A DNA stretch of 61,600 nucleotides from the NCBI GenBank assembly GCA_024275575.1, contig JAJRYV010000070.1, positions 1-61,600 of the forward strand, read 5' to 3'. A program made the translations under genes and the position numbers. The notes below the pieces were generated by a model. The model saw only the letters and a program-made list of their open reading frames with translations, had not been told where the DNA came from and did no database searches. The first letter of the stretch is position 1; every line of letters begins with the position of its first letter. Below, one piece after another: positions 6,230 through 53,156 of this stretch. Source of the DNA: a bacterium. GTDB taxonomy: Bacteria > Zhuqueibacterota > Zhuqueibacteria > Zhuqueibacterales > Geothermadaptataceae.

Positions 6230-6961
6230 ATGACATTGAAAGTAGCCATCGCTCATCTTCTGGACTTACAAAGTATTGACAATAAACTGCATCAGATCGA
6301 ACTGGCCAAAGGCAATTTACCGGAAAAAGTGAAAAAGGCCGAAAGCGAGCTCGAAACCGCACGTGCCGTGTTATCGAAGTGCGAATCGAACCTGAGTGAA
6401 CTGCAAAAAGAGTTGCGGCAGATCGAGTCGGAAATTGCGAAACTAAACGAAGACAAGAAAAAATATGACGAACAGTTGTATGCGGTTACAACAAATAAAG
6501 AATATGATGCGGTTACACTGGAAATCGAAAATGCTATCAACAAAATTGATGAGCTTGAAAATCGCCAGTTGACGTTATTCGATGCGGAGAAAGATGCCGG
6601 AGAAGCGTTGCAGGAAGCAAAAGAAATGCTGGCAAAGCTCGAAAAAAGTTTCCAGGAAACTTCGGTAAAATTAAACAAAACGATCGAAGCGAATGCAGAA
6701 AAAGAAAAAGCGTTAACTGCACAACGCCAGGAAACAGCGGCCAAAATCCGGCCGGAATTTCTGCGTCTTTACGAACGCATTCGCAAACCCAAAGATGGAT
6801 TGCCGCTGGTCACTGTCGAACGGGGCGCTTGCGGTGGTTGTTATACGAATATCCCGCCGCAGCGAATCATGGAGATTCGCGAGGCAGACAGGCTGATCGT
6901 ATGTGAGCATTGTGGCCGTATTCTTTTTTGGCAAGAAGAAAAGGAATTAACAATAAATTGA
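6230..6961 (+). CDS. Coiled-coil C4 zinc-ribbon protein (DUF164/CT398-like)
   Basis: 243 residues. Residues ~10-175 form a long antiparallel coiled coil rich in Glu, Lys and Leu. The C-terminus has a four-cysteine zinc ribbon: CGGC followed by YTNIPPQ, then CEHCGRILFW. This is the architecture of the zf-RING_7/DUF164 family (Chlamydia CT398, Helicobacter HP0958), which binds sigma-54 or RNA and flagellar partners in those species. The role here is not known. The ATG at 6230 has GAGG just upstream. It lies immediately before rnpB, ending about 14 bases from the RNA's first helix. Confidence 0.85.
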   Translation: MTLKVAIAHLLDLQSIDNKLHQIELAKGNLPEKVKKAESELETARAVLSKCESNLSELQKELRQIESEIAKLNEDKKKYDEQLYAVTTNKEYDAVTLEIENAINKIDELENRQLTLFDAEKDAGEALQEAKEMLAKLEKSFQETSVKLNKTIEANAEKEKALTAQRQETAAKIRPEFLRLYERIRKPKDGLPLVTVERGACGGCYTNIPPQRIMEIREADRLIVCEHCGRILFWQEEKELTIN

Positions 6962-40655: not shown

Positions 40656-42119
40656 ATGAACAGAAAATGGATTTTCATTGGCTTAATATTTGTTTTCAAT
40701 TTTTTTAGCAACCCGGCACAGGGGCAATATAAACGCGGTATTTTTTCTATCGGCATTCAGGCCGGGGCACAGGATTATTTCGGTGATGTCGAACGCAGTT
40801 CTCTGGGGCCGGCGGTCGCTGGTGTTGCGCGTGTGATGCTGCGCCCCTATCTTGGTTTGCAACTCAATACCGGTTACAGTGAGTTGCGGGATGATGTGAA
40901 ATATCGTTCATTTTTTACCAGTCTGCTCGACGCCAAACTGAATCTGGTTTTTATGTTTTACCAAAACGCCCGGGTTGCCCCGATGGTTTATTTGGGGGCG
41001 GGTGGCTTTCGTTATCGGGCTTATAAAGGCAATCGGGTCGATCTTTTGAAAACCAGTGACGGAAGCGAGGCCTACGGCTGGGAGGAAGTCGCTGTTTTAG
41101 GGCTTGGCGTCGAAGCGTTCCTCACGCCGATGTGGAGCTTCCAGTTCTCCGGTGATTATCATTATGCTTTTTCCGACAAACTCGATGGCCAAATCGCACG
41201 CAACGATTACGATGGTTTTCTCAATGCCCGGGTTACCTTGCTGTTTAATTTTAAAGGTGACCGGGATACGGATGGGGACGGAATTTTTGATCGGGAAGAT
41301 TTCGAACCTAAAAAAATGGAAGATTTTGATGGTTTCCACGACTGGGATGGGGCGCCTGATCCGGACAATGATGGCGACGGCATTCTGGATTTTGCTGACA
41401 CTGCGCCAAATGAACCTGAGGATTTTGATGGATTCGAAGATTATGATGGTGCTCCGGATACGGATAATGACCGCGACGGCATTCCTGATGAAAAAGATTT
41501 AGCCCCGAATGAGCCGGAGGATTACGACGGCTTTCAGGATGAGGACGGGAAGCCGGACCCGGATAACGATGGCGACGGCATCCCGGATTTACGTGATGGC
41601 GCACCGAATACGCCGGAAGATTTCGATGGGTTTGAAGATGAAGATGGCATACCCGATTGGGATAATGATGGCGACACGGTGCCGGATTCCATCGACGGCG
41701 CACCGTTGCAAGCTGAAAACTTCAACGGCTACCAGGATGAGGACGGCATTCCGGAAAAAGACCTGTGGATGAAAATTGGTGAAAAGCAGATTTTACAGGG
41801 TATCAGCTTTAATAGCGGCTCGGCCACATTGACCAGCGCCAGTTATCAAGCACTCAATACGATCGCCGAAAAACTGGCCGCCGATAAGGCAATTTTTCTC
41901 GATATTCAGGGATATACCGACGACCGCGGCCATGATACGGCCAACTTGAAATTATCGTTGAAAAGGGCGAACAGTGTTCGCGCCTTTCTCCTGAGCAAAG
42001 GGATTCAGGGTAACCGGCTGATGGCGACAGGTTTTGGCGAAGCCAATCCTATCGCTCCGAACGATACCACAGAGGGACGGCGGGCAAATCGCCGAATCGA
42101 AATTGTGCGCATTAAATAA
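40656..42119 (+). CDS. OmpA-family protein with thrombospondin type-3 repeats
   Basis: 487 residues. A signal peptide (KWIFIGLIFVFNFFSNPAQG) is followed by an eight-stranded-like barrel region to about residue 200. Residues ~205-360 carry Ca-binding TSP3 repeats with cores such as DTDGDGIFDREDFEP, DPDNDGDGILDF, DTDNDRDGIPDEKD and DPDNDGDGIPDLRD. The C-terminal OmpA domain (~370-487) binds peptidoglycan: DIQGYTDDRGHDTANLKLS and RLMATGFGEANPI, ending GRRANRRIEI. It links the outer membrane to the wall. AAGGAGG before ATG 40656 predicts strong translation, and the terminator at 42141 closes it. Confidence 0.93.
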   Translation: MNRKWIFIGLIFVFNFFSNPAQGQYKRGIFSIGIQAGAQDYFGDVERSSLGPAVAGVARVMLRPYLGLQLNTGYSELRDDVKYRSFFTSLLDAKLNLVFMFYQNARVAPMVYLGAGGFRYRAYKGNRVDLLKTSDGSEAYGWEEVAVLGLGVEAFLTPMWSFQFSGDYHYAFSDKLDGQIARNDYDGFLNARVTLLFNFKGDRDTDGDGIFDREDFEPKKMEDFDGFHDWDGAPDPDNDGDGILDFADTAPNEPEDFDGFEDYDGAPDTDNDRDGIPDEKDLAPNEPEDYDGFQDEDGKPDPDNDGDGIPDLRDGAPNTPEDFDGFEDEDGIPDWDNDGDTVPDSIDGAPLQAENFNGYQDEDGIPEKDLWMKIGEKQILQGISFNSGSATLTSASYQALNTIAEKLAADKAIFLDIQGYTDDRGHDTANLKLSLKRANSVRAFLLSKGIQGNRLMATGFGEANPIAPNDTTEGRRANRRIEIVRIK

Positions 42120-42140
42120 TCGCACTGCCGGATTGATGGG

Positions 42141-42171
42141 AAAAAAAGCGACCGCGCAGGTCGCTTTTTTG
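42141..42171. terminator. Bidirectional terminator between convergent genes
   Basis: AAAAAAGCGACC (42142-42153) and GGTCGCTTTTTT (42159-42170) form a perfect stem with a 5-base loop, with T-runs in both directions. It serves the OmpA gene on the plus strand and the RND operon on the minus strand. Confidence 0.93.
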
Positions 42172-42173
42172 TT

Positions 42174-45100
42174 TTAAGCTTCGGAAAGTTCGGGTTGGGG
42201 CAGGGATGCTTTACCATTCCCGGGATCGTCGAGGGTTTCTCTTTCGCGTCCGGTTATTTTGTGGAACCAGCGTGTGCTATCATCAAATAACGAATAGGCG
42301 ACAGGTACGACGATCAGGGTCAGAAATGTCGCGAAGGCCAGCCCGAAAATTACAGCGATGCCCATGGGACCCCACCATTGCTGGTTTTGCCCGCCATAGC
42401 TGAAGGAAAAATTGAAAAAATCGACATTGAGACCGGTGGTTAGCGGGATCAATCCGAGAATGGTCGTGACGGCTGTGAGGATGACCGGCCGAAAACGGGT
42501 TCTCCCGGCTTTGACGATTGCCTCCAGTTTGGCGTAACCACGTTCGCGCAGTTTTATCGTATAATCCAGCAACACGATGGCGTTGTTGACCACAACTCCG
42601 GCCAGTGAAATCACCCCGATGCCCGTCATCATTATGCCGAATGGTGTGCGCGTTATCATCAGGCCAATGAGCACGCCGATGAGTGACAGAATCACTGAAA
42701 ACATGATAATGAAAGGTGTGGCGACCGAATTAAACTGATAGACAAGCACGATAAAAATAAGGAAAATGGCGATAAAAAAAGCTTTGCTCAGGAATGCCAT
42801 GGTTTTTTCCTGTTCCTCATTTTCACCGGTGTAACTGATGTTATAACCCGGCGGCAGCGGAAAAATCGCCAGTGAGTCCTGCACTTCAGCAAGAATTTCG
42901 TTGGGCAGGCGACCTTCGGTATTGGCTGAAACAGTTACAACCCGTTTGCGGTCTTTATGTAAAATGTTAGCCAGCCCGGTGCTGAATTCGATTTTAGCGA
43001 TTGATGTGAGCGGGATTTGTGTGCCTTCTTCAAATGCGACGAGCTGGTCGATATCGGTGATCTGGTCGCGCCATTTTTCATTCAGGCGCACGGTGATATC
43101 ATATTCTTCCTCATTGACACGAAAAGTTGAGGCCTCCGAACCATTGATCGCCGTGCGCACCATGCCTGCGATTTTTTGTGTATTCAAACCATACAGGCTC
43201 GCTTTTTCGCGGTCGATGACAATGCGCAGCTCCGGTCGGCCTTTATCATAATCGTCGCGCAAATCGACAATACCGTCGATTTTGCGGATTATGCGCTGTA
43301 TCTTTTCGGCGAGATTTCCCAAGACGGTAAAATCATCGCCGGCGATTTCAATATTGACCGGAGGGCCGGTTGGTGGTCCCATTTCCGGTTCGTTAACTTC
43401 GATGCGCGCCCCAGCTTGGCCTTTAATGGCGTCCCGAATTTGATCTTTGGTCTTTTTCGACGATTGCTCACGGTCTTCCTGATCGATAAATTCCAGCGTC
43501 ACCCGGCTTTTATGCGGTGTGCCGCCGCTGCTGCCCTCGCCGAGATTCATAGCCTGTGCATAGCCGACGTTGGTGGTGAAGGATTTGACATCACCGAGAA
43601 ATTGCGGTAGGTCTTTTTCGATTGATTTCAGGATGACATTCGATTCATCAAGATTAGTGCCGGTCGGCGCCGTGACATCGATATAAAGCTGAGCCGGATC
43701 GACCGCCGGCATAAATTCACAGCCTTTACCGACAAAACCGTAAAGAATGATAAACAAAACCAGATTGGCAAACGATATGCCCAGTGTCCTGCCTCGCCAA
43801 TTTAGCACAAAGCGTAATGCTTTTTCATAGATATCGACGACTTTGTTCATCAGGTGTTCGAAGCTGGAGGTCTTCTCTTTTTTCGAAATCACCATAAATT
43901 GGGCGGCGATGACCGGATTAAACACCAGCGCTACGAACAGGCAGCTCGTCAGTGTGATGATCAGGGTCGCAGGCAGATAGCTCATAAATTCACCCATAAT
44001 GCCGGGCCAGAAAAGCATAGGTGAGAAGGCACATAATGTCGTCACTGTGCTCGCGGTAACGGCGCCGCTCACTTCTTTGGTCCCCAGAAATGCCGCCTGC
44101 ATCGGGGAGTAACCCTCTTCGCGGTGGCGATAGATATTTTCGATGATGACAATGGCATTATCGACCAGCATGCCGAGCGCGAGAATCAGGCTGAACAGGA
44201 TGACCATGTTGAGTGTGTAGCCCAGTATATCGATGACAAGAAAGGATATAAGCATCGAAAGGGGAATGGAGATGGCTACGAACGCAGCATTGCGGCCGCC
44301 GAGAAAGAAAAACAGCACGATGACGACCAGTAACAACCCGGCGATGATGTTATTTTCCAGCTCGTTAACCATGCGGTGAATCTCTTTCGATTGATCGGCC
44401 AGAATATCGATGTGGGTGCCGGCCGGCAATTGTGGCAGCGCCGCAGCAATTTCCGCTTTCACTGTCTGCGCGATGCGGATAAGATTCTCACCCGATCTTT
44501 TTTGCACACTCAGCGTAATGCATTCACGACCATTTTGACGTGCATAACTTTCACGGTCTTTAAAACCATAAACCACCTCCGCGATATCGCGAATGAAAAT
44601 CGGCGTGCCGTCCATAACTTTGACGACGAGGTCTTTGATGATATCCGGCTCCTCGAATTCACCGGGAATGCGAATGAGGTATTTCAATTTCCCTACTTCG
44701 AGAGAACCGCCGGGTATCGTTTGGTTTTCGTTGTGAATGGCGTCGGTTATATCTTTAAATGAAATATTGTAGTACTTCAATTTGGCAAGATCGACATTGA
44801 CTTTAACCTCCCGTTCGAGTCCGCCGGTAATGTTGACATCGAGCACGCCAGGGATGGTTTCGAAGCGATCTTCCAGTTCTTCGGCTACATCTTTTAATTT
44901 TACCAGACCATAATTTCCTGAAATATTAACCAGCATAATTGGAAAATCAGAGAAATTGATTTCGTTGATCACCGGGTCTTCCGCATCAGCGGGCAGTTCC
45001 GCTTTGGCGAGGTCTACTTTTTCGCGAACTTTTTGCAGTGCTTCGTCGATGTCGGTTTCAGGATTGAACTCAACCTGAATAGAAGAAATACCTTCCGCCG

Positions 45101-45362
45101 AAGTCGAACGGATGACTTTCACGTCGGTGATTTCTTTTAACTTCTTTTCTAAGGGCAGTGTGACCAGAGTTTCCATATCGCCGGGCGCGACGCCGATATA
45201 TGGCGTGGTGACGATGATCAGCGGAATGGTGATGCTTGGCGAAGATTCGCGCGGTAAACTGTTGTATGACATCAATCCCATAATGGTCAGCAATATGATG
45301 GCCATGAAGATGACCGGTTTGTGCAGGAGTGAAAAACGTGTGATATCCATTTCTATACTCAA
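42174..45362 (-). CDS. RND-family efflux transporter permease (inner membrane)
   Basis: 1062 residues, the usual length. It opens DITRFSLLHKPVIFMAIILL, carries two large periplasmic domains and 12 expected membrane segments. The proton-relay helix reads LILALGMLVDNAIVIIENIY: the AcrB Asp-Asp pair is here Asp-Asn, as in many FCB RND pumps. The second half has GVISLAGVVVNNAIVLLDYT. It exports drugs or small molecules with the adaptor at 45392 and the channel at 46539. The order on the minus strand is tetR, tolC, adaptor, permease. The tail ends LPQPELSEA, and the terminator 42141 follows. Confidence 0.93.
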   Translation of the reverse strand: MSIEMDITRFSLLHKPVIFMAIILLTIMGLMSYNSLPRESSPSITIPLIIVTTPYIGVAPGDMETLVTLPLEKKLKEITDVKVIRSTSAEGISSIQVEFNPETDIDEALQKVREKVDLAKAELPADAEDPVINEINFSDFPIMLVNISGNYGLVKLKDVAEELEDRFETIPGVLDVNITGGLEREVKVNVDLAKLKYYNISFKDITDAIHNENQTIPGGSLEVGKLKYLIRIPGEFEEPDIIKDLVVKVMDGTPIFIRDIAEVVYGFKDRESYARQNGRECITLSVQKRSGENLIRIAQTVKAEIAAALPQLPAGTHIDILADQSKEIHRMVNELENNIIAGLLLVVIVLFFFLGGRNAAFVAISIPLSMLISFLVIDILGYTLNMVILFSLILALGMLVDNAIVIIENIYRHREEGYSPMQAAFLGTKEVSGAVTASTVTTLCAFSPMLFWPGIMGEFMSYLPATLIITLTSCLFVALVFNPVIAAQFMVISKKEKTSSFEHLMNKVVDIYEKALRFVLNWRGRTLGISFANLVLFIILYGFVGKGCEFMPAVDPAQLYIDVTAPTGTNLDESNVILKSIEKDLPQFLGDVKSFTTNVGYAQAMNLGEGSSGGTPHKSRVTLEFIDQEDREQSSKKTKDQIRDAIKGQAGARIEVNEPEMGPPTGPPVNIEIAGDDFTVLGNLAEKIQRIIRKIDGIVDLRDDYDKGRPELRIVIDREKASLYGLNTQKIAGMVRTAINGSEASTFRVNEEEYDITVRLNEKWRDQITDIDQLVAFEEGTQIPLTSIAKIEFSTGLANILHKDRKRVVTVSANTEGRLPNEILAEVQDSLAIFPLPPGYNISYTGENEEQEKTMAFLSKAFFIAIFLIFIVLVYQFNSVATPFIIMFSVILSLIGVLIGLMITRTPFGIMMTGIGVISLAGVVVNNAIVLLDYTIKLRERGYAKLEAIVKAGRTRFRPVILTAVTTILGLIPLTTGLNVDFFNFSFSYGGQNQQWWGPMGIAVIFGLAFATFLTLIVVPVAYSLFDDSTRWFHKITGRERETLDDPGNGKASLPQPELSEA

Positions 45363-45391
45363 CAGGCTTTATATCGTTGTTTTAGTCAGAA

Positions 45392-46459
45392 TTAATTAAG
45401 AATGCTGATCGCTTCTCCGGAAACGAGCTCACGATGGCCGCGGATGATGATTTTATCGCCGAAATTGAAAGCGCCTTCAACCAGTGCCAGGTTGCCGTCG
45501 ATGGCGATGACGGTGATTTCCTGACGCAGCGCACGATCGTCGCGGGCGAGAAAAATCGCTTTCCCTGTTTCGGTTTCAATCAACGCGTCCCGCGGGATGA
45601 CGAAACCTTCAGGATATTCCTTGCGTTTGATGCGCAGTTTGGTGAACATATTTGGCTTTAATGCGCCGTCGCGGTTGTCGAGTTTTATTTCCACCGGAAA
45701 TGTGCGGTTCGTAGGGTGGATCGTCGATCCGATGAAGGTGATATTGCCGGTAAAAACTTGTTCGCCGAGAATGTCGACAGTCACTTCAACTTCGGAATTC
45801 AGACGCACATCGGTGATATAGCGCTCGGGAATGCCGGCTTCGATCTTCACGACATCGGTTTTGATGATGTTGACAACCGGCGTTCCCGGCGAGATAAATT
45901 CGCCGAGCTCCACATAGCGCGCATCGATACGGCCATCGATGGGGCTGGTAATTTTCGTTTTGCCAAGGCGCGCTCGCAGACCTTCAAATGCAGCTTTGGC
46001 CTGTTGATATGCAAATTTTGTATCGAGGAATTGTTGCTCGGCAATAGCTTTTTCCGCGATCAGGTTCTTCTGTCGTTCAAAACGCTCGCGTGCTGCGTTG
46101 TAGGCAGCTTCCGCGCCACGATACGATTCCAGCATAATTTCGGCATCGAGTTCGATGATGGTCTCACCGCGACGCACGGCGGCGCCTTTATCGCGCAGAA
46201 TGCGTTTCACCACTCCGGCCTCCTCAGCGCTGATTTTGGCAGCAACATCTGCTTTGACAACACCCGGCGCTTCCACATATTCCGCAAATTTCGTCGGTTT
46301 TAATGTTGTCGTTTCGACATTAACGGTGGATTCCAAATCTTTTTTTGCCTCGAATTTCTCTAACGAAGAGGCATCGCTCTCGCTGCTGCAAGCCGCAAAA
46401 TAACTACCTGCCAAGGCTGTTGTTACGGCGATGGCTGCAAATTTTAAATATCGGTGCAT
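45392..46459 (-). CDS. RND efflux periplasmic adaptor lipoprotein
   Basis: 355 residues. Lipoprotein signal with lipobox FAAC and Cys24. The membrane fusion protein order is complete: barrel-sandwich lipoyl part (KADVAAKISAEEAGVVKRIL), helical hairpin (NAARERFERQKNLIAEKA), lipoyl return (KTKITSPIDGRIDARYVELG), beta-barrel and membrane-proximal domains (NMFTKLRIKRKEYPEGF). Adaptors form a hexameric ring between permease and channel. It is 29 bases upstream of the permease and certainly in the same operon. Confidence 0.93.
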   Translation of the reverse strand: MHRYLKFAAIAVTTALAGSYFAACSSESDASSLEKFEAKKDLESTVNVETTTLKPTKFAEYVEAPGVVKADVAAKISAEEAGVVKRILRDKGAAVRRGETIIELDAEIMLESYRGAEAAYNAARERFERQKNLIAEKAIAEQQFLDTKFAYQQAKAAFEGLRARLGKTKITSPIDGRIDARYVELGEFISPGTPVVNIIKTDVVKIEAGIPERYITDVRLNSEVEVTVDILGEQVFTGNITFIGSTIHPTNRTFPVEIKLDNRDGALKPNMFTKLRIKRKEYPEGFVIPRDALIETETGKAIFLARDDRALRQEITVIAIDGNLALVEGAFNFGDKIIIRGHRELVSGEAISILN

Positions 46460-46538
46460 TTTTTTCCTTTAATTTTATATTTCGGTTCATATTCACAGGG
46501 CTCTCTTTTTGCCTCTTGATCAGCACATTGTTGTGATT

Positions 46539-47864
46539 TTACAGCACACCCATGGCCCGGTCGATGCGGATTTTAACCATTAAATAGGAGGTCAATATGC
46601 GGTAATAATTGGACTTTGCCTGATTCAAAGCAAGAACTGCATCTTCGAGATCCAGCGTTTTCGCCTGGCCTTCACGGTAGCGCAGTTCAACCAGTTCCAG
46701 CGCACGTTTGGCTTGTTTTAAATTGCTGCGCTGTGCCCAGATGCTCTTTTCGGCTTCTCTGGCATTGTTCAGTAAGGATTTGATTTCCACCTCAACCTGG
46801 TCGCGCAGCTTACTTTCGTCATAAAGGGCATTGCGATATTCCGCCCGCGCTTTATCGACCTGTGCATAAGTTCTAAAACCATCAAAAATCGGAATCGTCA
46901 GTTGAACGCCGGCGCTGGTGCTCTTGACAAAACCGGCCTTGCCGAAATCCCATTTGTCACTTTCCGCCTGCGCCCGCCAGGTGCCGATCAAGTCAACACT
47001 CGGCAAGATTGCTGCGCGTACAATACCGATATTCTGTTGCCGCATCGAGGCTTCAAGATTGACCATTTTGAGTTCCGGGCGGTTTTCTTCCGCTTTGGCC
47101 ATAGCAGCCGTTAGACCCGGAATTTGCTGCGGACTGTATTTTAATGAGTCCGTCAGCGTGAGTTCATCCGACTGATCGATACCGATGATGTTTTTCAGAT
47201 TATTCAGACTCACCTGCAAAGTATTTTGACTGTTGAGCAAAATCGGTTGCGTATTGATGAATTCAACAAATTGGCGCAGCGTGTCATACTCGGCGACTTG
47301 CCCCTGTTGAAACAAAATACGCGAATATTCCAGATGTTTGCGCGTGAGTTCGGATGTTTGCCGATTGACCTGCAGGACTTTTTGCGCCAGCAGAACCTGA
47401 TAATAACTGTCGTGTACATTGACGATAACATCGCCACGAATACTTTTAAAACCCTCGCTGGAATAGTTTTTAAACAACTTTGCCACTTTTAGCGCCCGGC
47501 CGATTTTCCCGGCGCGGAACAACGGTTGCACCACACTCACCATGGCCGCATAGCTGTTTTCACTGCCGACGCGAATGGCCTGCTGTTCACCCGGATTGGT
47601 AAAACTCGGGAAAAAGAAAACCGGCAGATCGAGGTTACGTGTGTATGAACCGGAAAACGAAATATTAGGTAATGCATCCGCCCGCGCTTCACGTATCTGT
47701 GAATTGGCGGCAGCGAGGTTGTTTTTCGCTTTCAGAACATCTTCATTTTTTTCCAGCGCAATTTTAAGTGCTTGCGCCAGTGATAATTCATGTACTTGCT
47801 GGGCAGCGACGGTGTTTATAAACAGAAGGGCAAAAAGACCGTATAATTTTGCTGAAATTTTCAT
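46539..47864 (-). CDS. TolC-family outer-membrane efflux channel
   Basis: 441 residues. Signal peptide KLYGLFALLFINTVAA, then the two outer-membrane efflux repeats: EDVLKAKNNLAAANSQIREA with SNPNISFSG-like (DALPNISFSGSYTRN), and the second with ALYDESKLRDQVEVEIK and KRALELVELRYREGQAKTLD. TolC proteins trimerise into a periplasm-spanning tunnel. Gaps to the neighbours (79 bases to the adaptor, 154 to tetR) are compatible with one transcript. Confidence 0.93.
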   Translation of the reverse strand: MKISAKLYGLFALLFINTVAAQQVHELSLAQALKIALEKNEDVLKAKNNLAAANSQIREARADALPNISFSGSYTRNLDLPVFFFPSFTNPGEQQAIRVGSENSYAAMVSVVQPLFRAGKIGRALKVAKLFKNYSSEGFKSIRGDVIVNVHDSYYQVLLAQKVLQVNRQTSELTRKHLEYSRILFQQGQVAEYDTLRQFVEFINTQPILLNSQNTLQVSLNNLKNIIGIDQSDELTLTDSLKYSPQQIPGLTAAMAKAEENRPELKMVNLEASMRQQNIGIVRAAILPSVDLIGTWRAQAESDKWDFGKAGFVKSTSAGVQLTIPIFDGFRTYAQVDKARAEYRNALYDESKLRDQVEVEIKSLLNNAREAEKSIWAQRSNLKQAKRALELVELRYREGQAKTLDLEDAVLALNQAKSNYYRILTSYLMVKIRIDRAMGVL

Positions 47865-48018
47865 TTTTGTACAGTCATTCCATTATAGCGTTATTAATTT
47901 TGGGTAAGCCCAGGCCTGACCCGGTGTTTTGATCGATGCAAATTGATAATCGTCTGAAAAACAGCTTATCAGGATTTCTTGTATGTTCGAAAGATTGATA
48001 AGTTGCACGCGGTATCAA

Positions 48019-48645
48019 TTATTTTAACAAACCGTGCAGAAAAAATGTTTTAACTATATCTTCAGCCTGCTGAAAGTCGATATCCTGATCCAGACAATGC
48101 GCACAAACCTGACTGTGGATAAGCGCTTTTAAGGCTAAAGCAGTTTGCATCGGCGGCAAGTTTTTAAATTTGTTTTGCTGCATGCCGGTTTCCAGCAAAC
48201 GGGCGATTTCCTGCAAATCCTCATTTATCAATTTTTTCAGACGGCCGCCAAACTTGTCCTCAAAGCGCGATGAGTGGCTCATCTCCGACATGAAAAGGCG
48301 AAACTTGCTCTCGTGTTCTCGCATAAATTGAAAAGCCAATTCAATAAAACGTTCAATCTTTTTTCCGGCATCGCTGATGCCCTGTAAATTTTCCTGCATC
48401 CTCTTATGCAATACACGCTTGCCCTCCTCAAAAATGCTGACAAAAATATCTTCCTTGTTAGAAAAATAGAGATAGAGCGTGCCTTTGCCAAATTCCGCCG
48501 CTGCAGCGATTTCGTTCAGCGTCGTTTTTTCAAAACCCTTGTCTGCGAATATCTTCGCCGCAGCTTCGAGAATCTCCTGACGCCGCCGGTTGCGTTCCCG
48601 CTCTTTGCGGGTTAATTCAACAGTATTATTCATTATTAAACTCAT
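48019..48645 (-). CDS. TetR/AcrR-family transcriptional regulator
   Basis: 208 residues from ATG 48645 (48633 is an alternative). The N-terminal helix-turn-helix is RQEILEAAAKIFADKGFEKT and LNEIAAAAEFGKGTLYLYFS with NKEDIF, as in AcrR/QacR-type repressors. The ligand-binding C-terminal domain is helical, ending VKTFFLHGLLK. It heads the RND efflux operon and most likely represses it through the palindrome at 48658-48688, located 12 bases upstream of its own start, so the repressor probably controls itself as well. The inducer is unknown. Confidence 0.92.
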   Translation of the reverse strand: MSLIMNNTVELTRKERERNRRRQEILEAAAKIFADKGFEKTTLNEIAAAAEFGKGTLYLYFSNKEDIFVSIFEEGKRVLHKRMQENLQGISDAGKKIERFIELAFQFMREHESKFRLFMSEMSHSSRFEDKFGGRLKKLINEDLQEIARLLETGMQQNKFKNLPPMQTALALKALIHSQVCAHCLDQDIDFQQAEDIVKTFFLHGLLK

Positions 48646-48657
48646 GAGTCAGTTTGT

Positions 48658-48688
48658 GGCCGATCAGTCATTATTTGACTGGGCGGCC
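48658..48688. promoter_or_regulatory. 31-bp palindrome, likely TetR operator
   Basis: GGCCGATCAGTCA (48658-48670), TTATT centre, then TGACTGGGCGGCC (48676-48688). Eleven of 13 arm positions are complementary. It lies just upstream of the tetR start on the minus strand, the usual position for autoregulation by this family. Confidence 0.7.
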
Positions 48689-48926
48689 AGATGATACGAT
48701 TGTTTTCCGGGAAATGCAAGTGTATTTTCCATTTTTTCAATTAAATTGCAGAATTGACGAACTGTTGATTTAATTACGGAGGATGGGCAAAAAATTTCCG
48801 GTCAAATGAATATTATTTTAAAAATCAATCGCAGTTTTCATTGAAAATTATCTCGTAAAACACTATCATAAAAAAGGTTTCCTGAAAACCTGGTTGACCA
48901 TGGAAATTAAATAGTGCGCATCAGGG

Positions 48927-49040
48927 CGAGCGTCATTCCGTCATGTTTTTAAACGGAATCCAGTATCTTCCCGCCTCAACGTGTTACTGATTCCCGCAAC
49001 AGTATGCGGGAATGACTAAAAATGGCGTGTTTCCGGACGG
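48927..49040 (-). repeat. Dispersed repeat, copy 2
   Basis: Reverse complement of this segment aligns with 9541-9656 over its whole length, with 29 of 32 matches in the core (48931-48962). A palindromic inner part reads ATTCCCGCA ... TGCGGGAAT (48990-49013). It contains no open frame. It lies in the gap between the efflux operon and the TIR gene. Confidence 0.75.
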
Positions 49041-49054
49041 ATACTAAGATAAAC

Positions 49055-49192
49055 AATGTCATTAAGTTAGATGATGTTGACCTTGCAAGGTTCGAAAAAT
49101 CAACAATTTAATTTCAAAGTATGTTGTTATATCATAACTTCCATACTTCCAGCAACTTCGCAAGGATGCCCACGGCTTAACTTAACGACATT
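49055..49192. mobile_element. MITE-like element with terminal and internal inverted repeats
   Basis: AATGTCATTAAGTTA (49055-49069) and TAACTTAACGACATT (49178-49192) are complementary at 14 of 15 positions. Internal arms CCTTGCAAGGTT (49081-49092) and AACTTCGCAAGG (49154-49165) add a second partial pair. The 138 bases contain no coding frame. Size and structure suggest a non-autonomous element mobilised by a transposase elsewhere. No clear target-site duplication is visible. Confidence 0.6.
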
Positions 49193-49272
49193 AACTACCA
49201 TAGAGTGAAGCGGAAGTTGTAAAATCAACACAATTATTACGGTATATTCCTTTCAAGTATCTGGGACATTGT

Positions 49273-50211
49273 ATGCAAGATTTAGCGCGTCTCCATCTTT
49301 TTTTGATTTATGCACGCGAAGAGATAGCGGTCGCGAGAGAACTGAAATTTGAAATTGCACAATTAGGTGTGCAGGTTTGGTTTGATGAGAAACCGCGGCG
49401 CGACCGGCATGTTTTCCCGGCGCATGTTCGTGATGCATTAATTAAATGTGATGCTGCCATCGTCGTTTGGTCGCAGGTCGCGGCAGAGTCAATCTGGGTT
49501 GAAGGGGAGTGTATCGGGGCAAGGGAACTCGAAAAAAAAATAATTATTCTATGTCAGGATAACACGCCAATTCCCCTTCACCTCAAGCCGAATTTCATCA
49601 TTTCATTCGATTCTCAGCAACAAATGCGCACCTTGTTAAATGGCGTTCTTAAAAAAACTGACTTTGCGGCATCAAATACACAAACCGACTGGCAACCGCT
49701 TTATTCGCCCGGCAATCTTCGTGAGTTACCGCTGACAAATTTTACCCATTTGGACGTCGAGCATAGTGCGCGGCAACTGGGTTTTTTTGAAAAAAGACTC
49801 AACCCCGCAGCAAACGGACTGCGGCATGAATATGATACTTTGGAAAATCTCCGCATTATCCATGATTATGCAACCGGTCTGGCCTGGCAGGTGGCCGGTT
49901 CGGCGCACACGGTAAATCTGCCGGTGGCCAGGATTTTTATCGATGATTTAAATCGCGAAAGGTATGGTGGATACACAGGATGGCGGTTGCCCACAAGCGT
50001 TGAGGTTTTGACGCTGCTCGATTCAACCTGTTTTGCGCACGGTTTGCATTTAGACCCTGGTTTCAGCAGCTTGCAAAAATGCATCTGGACTGCGGATAAT
50101 TTGAATGAAACGCAGTATTGGTGCGTCGATTTTAAGCAGGCTCTTTGTTTTTTAGAACCGACATATAATGAAAATTTCGTCCGTGCAGTGCGCACCCTGG
50201 AGGTGCTCTGA
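49273..50211 (+). CDS. TIR-domain protein fused to a DUF1566/Lcl-type domain
   Basis: 312 residues. Residues ~6-125 form a TIR domain: LHLFLIYAREEIAVARELKF, VQVWFDEKPRRDRHVFPA, then CDAAIVVWSQVAAESIWVEG with a likely catalytic Glu79 in the SxWxxxE pattern, and KKIIILCQDNTPIPLH. Residues ~190-310 match the DUF1566/Lcl C-type: TGLAWQVAG, GGYTGWRLPTSVEVLTLLDS, CIWTADNLNETQYWCVDF. Many bacterial TIR domains cleave NAD or signal in immunity; DUF1566 is a formylglycine/lectin-like fold of unclear role. No signal peptide, so cytoplasmic. It ends 24 bases before the oxidoreductase at 50235 and lies beside a MITE-like element. Confidence 0.8.
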   Translation: MQDLARLHLFLIYAREEIAVARELKFEIAQLGVQVWFDEKPRRDRHVFPAHVRDALIKCDAAIVVWSQVAAESIWVEGECIGARELEKKIIILCQDNTPIPLHLKPNFIISFDSQQQMRTLLNGVLKKTDFAASNTQTDWQPLYSPGNLRELPLTNFTHLDVEHSARQLGFFEKRLNPAANGLRHEYDTLENLRIIHDYATGLAWQVAGSAHTVNLPVARIFIDDLNRERYGGYTGWRLPTSVEVLTLLDSTCFAHGLHLDPGFSSLQKCIWTADNLNETQYWCVDFKQALCFLEPTYNENFVRAVRTLEVL

Positions 50212-50234
50212 AATGAAACTGCTGATGGCCTGCA

Positions 50235-53156
50235 ATGATGTCTGATAAATCCGCTCTGCCGGATTTTTTTCATGCACTCGCCAGAGTGACACGTAGCAAA
50301 TTGCTGTGCGATCGCTACAGTATCATCCTCTATAGTACCGACGCCAGCATTTATTCGATCCCGCCGCTCGCGGTTTTTATTCCCGAATCCATCGATGATA
50401 TTCAGGCTGCAGTTGAGATTGCTGCAGACTATAAAATCCCCATTCTGCCGCGCGGCGCCGGAACCTCACTCGCCGGACAGGCCGTCAATGAAGCGCTGAT
50501 CATCGATTTTAGCCGCCACTGCGATCACATCCTGGAGATCGATCACAAGGCAAAATTTGCCCGTATTCAGCCTGGTGTAGTTCTTGAAACCCTCAATAAC
50601 GCAACTCAAAAATCTGGTTTGAAATTTGGCCCCGACCCGGCCAGCGCCAACCGCGCCCTCATGGGTGGGGTGATCGGCAATAACGCTACCGGCAGCCATT
50701 CGATCCTTTACGGCATGAGTGTCGATCATGTTCAGGAAATGCGCGTCGTTCTGGCCGACGGCAGTGTGGCTGAATTTGCCTCATTCTCGGCAGCACAACT
50801 CGATTTTAAGCAGAAGTTGAACAGTTTTGAGGGGAATATTTATCGCTCAATTGCGCAAATTATTAAAAATGGTGCAGAGATCATTCGGGAAAAAACGCCG
50901 TCACACTGGCGCCGCTGTGGCGGATACAATCTCGACCGTTTTGTCGCCGGGCTGAATTTCCACAAAACCCGCCGGCCTGATTTTAATCTCGCCAGTCTCG
51001 TTTGCGGTGCCGAAGGCACGCTGGCCGTGATGACGGAAATCAAAGTGGGGCTGGTGCCGCTGCCACGCTTTACGGCACTGGCTGTTTTGCATTTTTTACA
51101 GCACAGAGCGGCGCTGGAAGCTGCAGAAATCGTTATGCAAAGCGCGCCCGATGTGGTTGAACTTTTCGACGGCTGGTGCCTGGCGCTGGCAAAAAATGCG
51201 CCGCAATATGCCCGTCTATTGCAGACCTTTGTCGAAGGTGAGCCGCAATGCCTGCTCATTGTCGAGGTTTCCGGCGATAGCACAGCAGAAATTTCCGCTA
51301 AACTAACAGGGCTCAGGGAACACTTGCAGAAGTTTCATGTCAATTGCACTATCAGCGAAATCACTTCTCCGCAGCAACAACAGCATGTCTGGGCTGTACG
51401 CAAGGCCGGTCTCGGTTTATTGGCGAGCCGCCATGGTGATTACAAACCCATACCATTCATCGAAGACGCCGCCGTACCACTTCCGAACCTTCCCGGTTAC
51501 ATTGCAGCAATCGAAAAATTCTGCGGGCAAAATAAAGTTGAACTGGCCTACTACGCCCATGCCAGCGCCGGTTGTCTGCATGTGCGCCCGTTTTTAAATT
51601 TGAAAAACCGAATGGATCGAAGTTTTATGCACGAACTGGCGGCATTTTCTGCAGAACTTGTACGCAAACGCGGAGGTGCACTGTCGAGTGAACATGGCGA
51701 TGGGCGCAGCCGCAGTTGGCTGAATGCCTCCTTTTTTGGTGCAGAGCTTTATGATTTTTACTGCTGTGTTAAAAAAACCTTCGATCCTGAAAATTTGATG
51801 AACCCCGGCATCATCACTGCCGGACAGCGGATTGCTGAGAATTTGCGTTTTGGTGAAAACTATCGGCCACAACCTGTTGCGACCTATTTCAGTTTTAAAG
51901 AAGAAACAGGATTTGCCGGCGCCGTTGAAATGTGCACCGGGGCGGCAGTGTGCAAAAAACTCAATAGCGGCACCATGTGCCCGAGCTTTATGGCGACTCG
52001 TGAGGAAAAACACAGCACCCGAGGCCGCGCCAATGCCTTGCGGGCTGCGCTGGCAACGGGATTGCCGGAGTCACTCGATCGTGAACTCTACGAAATTCTC
52101 GATTTATGTGTCGAATGCAAAGCCTGCAAGGCCGAATGCCCCTCGAAAGTTGACATGGCCAAACTCAAGTTTGAATTTCTCAGCCAGTTTAATGCAAAAA
52201 ATGGCATACCCCTGCGCTCCCGTCTTTTTGCCGAAATTGCCATTTTGAGTCGGCTTTTTTCCGGGCGTACGGCTGGTTTGTTTAATGCTTTAATCGGTGC
52301 TAATATTTCTCGTCAATTATTGGCTATGGGGTTGGGTATCAGCGCAAAACGAAAAATGCCGCTTTTCGCCCCTGAACCATTTGAAAAATGGTTTGCCAAA
52401 GCAGGCGTCGATTCTGTGGCCATGGTGCCGAAAGTAGTACTGTTTCATGATACATTCAATTCCTGTTCCCAACCGCAAGTTTTAATTGCCGCAACGAAAA
52501 TTTTACGCCTTGCCGGATTCGAGGTGTTGCTATCACAACACGGGTGCTGCGGCCGGTCGATGATTTCCAAAGGACTTTTTCCTCGGGCAAAAAAAATGGC
52601 CCGGACTACGGTGCAGCATCTCACTGCATTTGCGAGTGAGAATATCCCGATCGTCGGGCTCGAACCAGGTTGCCTGCTGAGCCTGCGCGATGAATATCGC
52701 GATCTTTTGTCCGGTGATCCGCGGGTTGAGAATATCGCTGCCAATGCTTTTTTATTTGAAGAGTTTATTATGCAGCGTGCTGATCTTGACCTTTTGCAGC
52801 AAAAATTGCGACCACAGGAAATGAAAATTTTGCTGCAGGGCCATTGCCACCAGAAAGCGTTGGCGGGCACTGCTGCAACAAAATCCTTTCTCGAGCTCAT
52901 TCCCGGTGTTTCCTGCGAGGAAATCGATTCGGCTTGTTGTGGCCTGGCCGGTTCGTTTGGTTATGAAAAAGAGCACTACGAAATATCGATGGCCATGGGT
53001 GAACGGCGGCTGTTTCCTGCGGTTCGTGTCGCGGCTGTTACAACTATAATTGCGGCGCCGGGTTTCAGTTGCCGGCAACAAATCGAACATGGAACAGGAA
53101 GAAAAGCCCGGCATCCGGTACAAATTTTCACTGATTGTTTGAAAACCGGAGTTTAG
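50235..53156 (+). CDS. Fused FAD-binding and Fe-S oxidoreductase (GlcD/GlcF-like, YdiJ type)
   Basis: 973 residues. The FAD-binding domain (about 40-270) has PILPRGAGTSLAGQAV and GGVIGNNATGSHSILYG; the substrate domain follows with HASAGCLHVRPFLN and SSEHGDGRSRSW. A ferredoxin-type segment has CVECKACKAECPSKVDM (about residues 623-640), with a second cysteine cluster in CTGAAVCKKLNSGTMCPS. Two CCG-domain motifs, HGCCGRS and CCGLAGSFG, end the chain. Such fusions oxidise D-lactate, D-2-hydroxyglutarate or glycolate and pass electrons to quinone. The substrate is not decidable here. ATG 50235 and 50238 are equivalent starts. Confidence 0.9.
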   Translation: MMSDKSALPDFFHALARVTRSKLLCDRYSIILYSTDASIYSIPPLAVFIPESIDDIQAAVEIAADYKIPILPRGAGTSLAGQAVNEALIIDFSRHCDHILEIDHKAKFARIQPGVVLETLNNATQKSGLKFGPDPASANRALMGGVIGNNATGSHSILYGMSVDHVQEMRVVLADGSVAEFASFSAAQLDFKQKLNSFEGNIYRSIAQIIKNGAEIIREKTPSHWRRCGGYNLDRFVAGLNFHKTRRPDFNLASLVCGAEGTLAVMTEIKVGLVPLPRFTALAVLHFLQHRAALEAAEIVMQSAPDVVELFDGWCLALAKNAPQYARLLQTFVEGEPQCLLIVEVSGDSTAEISAKLTGLREHLQKFHVNCTISEITSPQQQQHVWAVRKAGLGLLASRHGDYKPIPFIEDAAVPLPNLPGYIAAIEKFCGQNKVELAYYAHASAGCLHVRPFLNLKNRMDRSFMHELAAFSAELVRKRGGALSSEHGDGRSRSWLNASFFGAELYDFYCCVKKTFDPENLMNPGIITAGQRIAENLRFGENYRPQPVATYFSFKEETGFAGAVEMCTGAAVCKKLNSGTMCPSFMATREEKHSTRGRANALRAALATGLPESLDRELYEILDLCVECKACKAECPSKVDMAKLKFEFLSQFNAKNGIPLRSRLFAEIAILSRLFSGRTAGLFNALIGANISRQLLAMGLGISAKRKMPLFAPEPFEKWFAKAGVDSVAMVPKVVLFHDTFNSCSQPQVLIAATKILRLAGFEVLLSQHGCCGRSMISKGLFPRAKKMARTTVQHLTAFASENIPIVGLEPGCLLSLRDEYRDLLSGDPRVENIAANAFLFEEFIMQRADLDLLQQKLRPQEMKILLQGHCHQKALAGTAATKSFLELIPGVSCEEIDSACCGLAGSFGYEKEHYEISMAMGERRLFPAVRVAAVTTIIAAPGFSCRQQIEHGTGRKARHPVQIFTDCLKTGV

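Follow-up and report, generated by a model that had tools for sequence, protein, structure and literature searches.

C-type-lectin-like (CLec) domains are found in the variable proteins of described diversity-generating retroelements (DGRs). In cyanobacterial DGR CLec proteins (Vallota-Eastman 2020, PMC7517822) a signalling domain lies N-terminal to the CLec domain, and TIR-like domains have been reported among these variable proteins. Their paralogs are dispersed away from the DGR, and some homologs are no longer matched by a template. In Thiohalocapsa PB-PSB1, DGRs diversify putative antigen sensors (Dore 2024, PMC10907252): CLec sensors are tied to NACHT, nSTAND, CHAT, kinase and TIR effectors, and the TIR appears to be encoded mostly by a neighbouring effector gene. 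Among the Pfam domains of DGR targets, DUF1566 has been reported to be the commonest (PMC6642488). The same family, Lcl_C (PF07603), includes the C-terminal domain of Legionella Lcl, a trimeric adhesin of the cell surface that has a collagen stalk; this domain (8q4e) is C-type-lectin-like (PMC11162425). The TIR NADases SPARTA TIR-APAZ, AbTIR and SARM1 have a TIR fold and an invariant Glu, and carry sensor partners other than Lcl_C.

Here we analysed a TIR-Lcl_C gene within a bacterial DNA stretch of 61,600 nucleotides (the window). Its product resembles the cyanobacterial proteins in having the signalling domain N-terminal to the lectin-like domain, and resembles some of their homologs in no longer being template-matched. 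It differs from them in that its CLec domain is Lcl_C/DUF1566, its relatives belong to KSB1/Calditrichota, and both a template and the codon signature are missing. Unlike most of the Thiohalocapsa TIR effectors as described, TIR and lectin occupy one 312-aa chain; unlike in the Legionella adhesin, Lcl_C sits behind TIR. The preliminary description did not recognise this architecture and missed its precedents: the protein is a further TIR-CLec protein of DGR kinship, a kind already known. What is unusual is that the chain is single and short, that this lineage uses Lcl_C as the module, and that the copy has clearly retired from diversification.

Domain content of the TIR-Lcl_C protein

The gene and its parts are as follows.

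49273-50211, plus strand: 312-aa TIR-Lcl_C (DUF1566) fusion protein, present once in the genome
49294-49611, plus strand: TIR domain, presumed NADase effector (residues 8-113; TIR_2, profile and Foldseek matches)
49507-49509, plus strand: codon of E79, presumed catalytic Glu (invariance; region aligned with the conserved Glu of SPARTA TIR)
49657-49746, plus strand: flexible interdomain linker (about residues 129-158; pLDDT below 50 at residues 133-144)
49759-50196, plus strand: extended Lcl_C domain, C-type-lectin-like sensor module (residues 163-308; Pfam, profile, Foldseek 8q4e)
50134-50193, plus strand: counterpart of the relatives' DGR variable region, KQALCFLEPTYNENF then VRAVR (alignment; codon signature lost)

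The frame runs from the ATG at 49273 to the stop at 50209-50211 and is intact. Both halves of the proposed fusion are real, with Pfam matches to TIR_2 at residues 10-113 (34.9 bits, cut-off 28) and to Lcl_C PF07603 at residues 195-307 (60.2 bits, cut-off 34.9). The gene is the only Lcl_C match in its genome, and its G+C content (0.47) is the same as that of the window. A model built from 20 relatives (mean pLDDT 80.5, pTM 0.55) shows two folded halves, with a linker between them that is weakly predicted.

In the TIR half, the suggested catalytic residue E79, within SIWVEGE, is invariant in all 20 TIR-Lcl_C proteins of one alignment and in 26 of 26 distinct proteins of a larger set; no homologue in either set substitutes it. 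A PDB search with the profile of the fusion family matched SPARTA TIR-APAZ, Cat1, AbTIR and SARM1, with E79 falling within the aligned segment that contains the conserved Glu of SPARTA TIR, and the modelled TIR half resembles SPARTA TIR-APAZ and SARM1 in Foldseek. With both the TIR fold and the conserved Glu of TIR NADase effectors, the domain is presumed to be an NAD-cleaving effector. Searches of known anti-phage systems gave unconvincing scores (best PADLOC E 0.006; best NCBIfam E 0.048, scoring 12.5 bits where the cut-off is 220), and identity with a known defence system was rejected.

The extended Lcl_C profile alone aligns nearly end to end with the Legionella Lcl C-terminal domain (8q4e_A, E 0.001), which was also found by a Foldseek search with the TIR-Lcl_C model. 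The window domain shares with it both the PF07603 family and the C-type-lectin-like fold. As in DGR variable proteins, the C-terminal lectin-like domain (residues 163-308) holds the stretch at the 3' end that is variable in relatives. Against viral models, Foldseek returned TIR-fold look-alikes, deoxyribosyltransferases, phage DUF1566 proteins and nothing else.

TIR-Lcl_C proteins and their partners in related genomes

The window protein has a match in 29 of 60 related genomes. In many genomes several proteins carry Lcl_C, and matching places number up to 20 per genome. Most of the named loci belong to candidate division KSB1 and Calditrichota; some belong to Planctomycetota (Scalindua, Brocadia), Deltaproteobacteria and further groups. 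The fusion is found elsewhere too: there are 26 distinct TIR-Lcl_C proteins. The window protein is 25-33% identical to its TIR-Lcl_C relatives, including the DGR targets L029:5968-7053 and L039:4884-5876, to which it is homologous over the whole sensor domain and whose effector-sensor architecture it shares. No ortholog of the exact window copy was found, and a single-protein search of genome and viral contigs for close relatives gave no match, nor did a search of phage records; plasmids yielded partial, single-domain matches only, mostly to TIR.

Lcl_C was C-terminal in every protein inspected. Its N-terminal partners in the same class include TIR, NACHT with NNH1, nSTAND1, nSTAND3, caspase, CHAT, Ser/Thr kinase, and Shedu together with TIR. 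The last is a triple fusion of Shedu SduA_C, TIR and Lcl_C with a DGR-like variable stretch (L030:5578-7209, 543 aa, genome G019). The same genome has four tandem Lcl_C genes (L035:4521-8897) in which the N-terminal part is charged and coiled-coil-like, with a membrane segment and no known effector. Another genome (G027) carries a tandem array of three TIR genes, two of them TIR-Lcl_C genes (L023:5369-8200), and a DGR reverse transcriptase was not found in it.

On a poorly resolved tree of 116 Lcl_C domains, from which the variable end was left out, the TIR label changes 17 times, at least four of the changes being forced by well supported branches; partners have therefore been exchanged repeatedly. 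The window domain has the longest branch of all (2.61, median 0.38), and because of this long branch and the poor resolution we claim no placement for it. The idea that sensor and effector are joined in one chain is well supported by the many effector domains that precede Lcl_C in relatives and by the invariant Glu, which together suggest that the window protein would act in this way.

DGR diversification in relatives

Two related genomes carry TIR-Lcl_C genes next to a template. In contig 110 of G013 (L029/L094), three genes are arranged around a 98-bp repeat: one for a TIR-Lcl_C protein, one for a reverse transcriptase, and a second gene for an Lcl_C protein, whose N-terminal half is long. 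All 13 mismatches between template and TIR-Lcl_C gene lie at template A (27 of the 98 bases are A; chance about 5e-8), as do all 15 mismatches to the second gene. In G028 (L039/L114) a single template matches four Lcl_C genes, two of which are TIR-Lcl_C genes with 13/13 and 19/20 mismatches at template A; the other two have 11/11 and 19/19. These four genes lie in a row (L039:1-8126), and in one of them the variable stretch has apparently lost 3 bases. The reverse transcriptases beside these genes carry the DGR motif GNxTSQ and YVDD, and that of G013 (L029:7010-8533) has a C-terminal MutS_I-like domain. A candidate template in G008 (L028) was discarded, as 17 of its 26 mismatches are not at A. 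At the level of sequence, the TIR-Lcl_C genes of G013 and G028 are shown to be bona fide DGR targets, whose 3' end is rewritten by template-directed adenine mutagenesis. In the literature searched we found no description of DGRs in the group to which these genomes belong.

Loss of diversification in the window copy

Across 58 Lcl_C sequences, C or T is the last base of 88% of codons in the variable stretch and of 49% elsewhere, the pattern that AAY templates would produce. In the window gene only 8 of 15 codons of this stretch end in a pyrimidine (53%; own background 52%), with a binomial P of about 0.001 in a test that treats codons as independent, and four residues (K, Q, E, E) are unreachable from AAY codons. 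Four other copies (L027, L055, L057, L058) have a codon pattern like that of the window. No second match of note to 50060-50225, and hence no template for the gene, was found in its own genome. From the missing template and the background codon composition, we reject the idea that the window gene is itself an active DGR target.

The genome contains two reverse transcriptases only, and an intact cognate DGR reverse transcriptase was not found in it. One, on contig C21 (L073:211-2562), is apparently fused to Cas1, with neighbours that we take to be type III CRISPR (Cmr) genes. The other belongs to a broken DGR of another class (L072:4125-6680, contig C96), with these parts:

L072:5423-6517 (contig C96): DGR reverse transcriptase frame with an in-frame TAA
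L072:4890-5008 (contig C96): variable repeat, with a stop, of a frameshifted FGE-type DGR target
L072, about 6490-6608 (contig C96): template of the FGE-type DGR, about 11 of 13 differences at A as read from the alignment

Single-base assembly errors could fake the stop on C96, but not the codon pattern of the window gene. With no template, no intact DGR reverse transcriptase and no template-made codons, the specificity of the window protein would be fixed, and we infer that this copy is a retired member of the DGR kin. Descent from a DGR target is the simpler reading than mere common ancestry with such targets.

Against a working sensor-effector stand the long branch and the low identity, which could also mean relaxed selection, and a sequence after FDE that deviates from the family consensus. 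The copy might be a decaying, nonfunctional relic whose sensor has drifted since DGR loss. Consistent with this are the place of its branch as the longest of 116, the background codon composition of the variable stretch, the broken DGR of its genome and, in the alignment, a DWRLPTLEEAMSLMEP motif that is partly lost. A relic would not be expected to have kept a 312-aa frame free of stops, E79 together with the Lcl_C core residues W, R, L, P and T, and both domains above their Pfam cut-offs, and we consider decay unlikely.

Genomic setting

The gene is flanked by an RND efflux operon, a TetR regulator, an FAD/4Fe-4S oxidoreductase, ThiI and TrmI. Upstream lie two repeats, reported beside the gene in the preliminary description; both are genuine and dispersed.

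48907-49020: dispersed repeat upstream of the TIR-Lcl_C gene, 12 further matches in the genome
49044-49203: MITE-like element with imperfect 26-nt inverted ends, 9 further matches in the genome

The oxidoreductase has the efflux genes and TetR next to it in G003 and G005 and TetR in G004, and in G001, of the same genus, it is retained together with ThiI and TrmI. None of the four genomes has the TIR gene at this place, and the window gene is therefore accessory at the TetR/oxidoreductase junction. This synteny rejects inheritance together with the oxidoreductase, which the preliminary description had named as grounds for refuting its reading. The neighbours are efflux, regulatory and housekeeping genes rather than the accessory-defence surroundings that had been supposed, and a PADLOC tally of the 43 window proteins gave no defence cluster by the TIR-Lcl_C gene. 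The strongest PADLOC matches in the window come from a protein at 902-2326 (candidate family PDC-S01) and from cysteine-desulfurase look-alikes (SspA/DndA). The PDC-S01 match is strong (E 4e-151); its gene is on the minus strand, 47 kb from the TIR-Lcl_C gene. In G001 (L086) an OmpA-like gene directly adjoins the oxidoreductase, while in the window (40656-53156) the two are separated by the RND efflux operon, TetR and the TIR gene, so more than one block of genes has been gained or lost at this junction.

The oxidoreductase gene, which is D-2-hydroxyglutarate-dehydrogenase-like, has its ATG 23 bp after the stop of the TIR-Lcl_C gene, and the two may be co-transcribed. This would suit a non-defence role, in which TIR serves as a scaffold or in signalling tied to the oxidoreductase while Lcl_C senses a metabolite or glycan. 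The conservation of the oxidoreductase in relatives that lack the TIR gene, and the different neighbours of TIR-Lcl_C genes in other genomes, DGR cassettes included, make such a role improbable.

Discussion

The evidence best fits a one-chain sensor-effector, and we regard it as probable that the window protein couples a lectin-like sensor to a TIR NADase that it triggers, and that it is an accessory relative of DGR targets with its specificity now fixed. The C-type-lectin-like Lcl_C domain would bind a ligand, such as a molecule of a phage or a competitor. Either this binding or a clustering of Lcl_C may bring the N-terminal TIR domains together, and the assembled TIRs, judging from their family, would cleave NAD+ with Glu79 and cause growth stop or cell death. 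Such a protein may act against phages or rivals.

That the gene is still diversified in trans, as a remote target with its template and reverse transcriptase left out of a draft assembly (144 contigs, 97.7% complete), has a precedent in the remote variable proteins of cyanobacteria (PMC7517822) but is very improbable, since the missing pyrimidine-ending signature and the unreachable K, Q and E residues are independent of assembly gaps and the sole DGR-type reverse transcriptase of the genome has a stop and serves another target class.

Building on the one-chain sensor-effector, a bolder scheme is possible, though rather unlikely: in this lineage DGRs may yield hypermutable one-chain TIR-lectin sensors that are later fixed, when a gene that has reached a useful specificity leaves its DGR, spreads as an accessory gene and is inherited like a germline-encoded innate receptor. 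The window copy would then be a fixed specificity that selection has kept since the DGR in its genome broke down.

TIR-Lcl_C proteins would represent a minimal diversifiable immune-type receptor of about 310 aa, with effector and hypervariable sensor in one chain and without an NTPase. Diversified and retired copies occur in related genomes, so the fate of DGR-made specificities becomes testable in this group. If the TIR part is an NADase, the step from sensor to effector could be examined in a system of just two domains.
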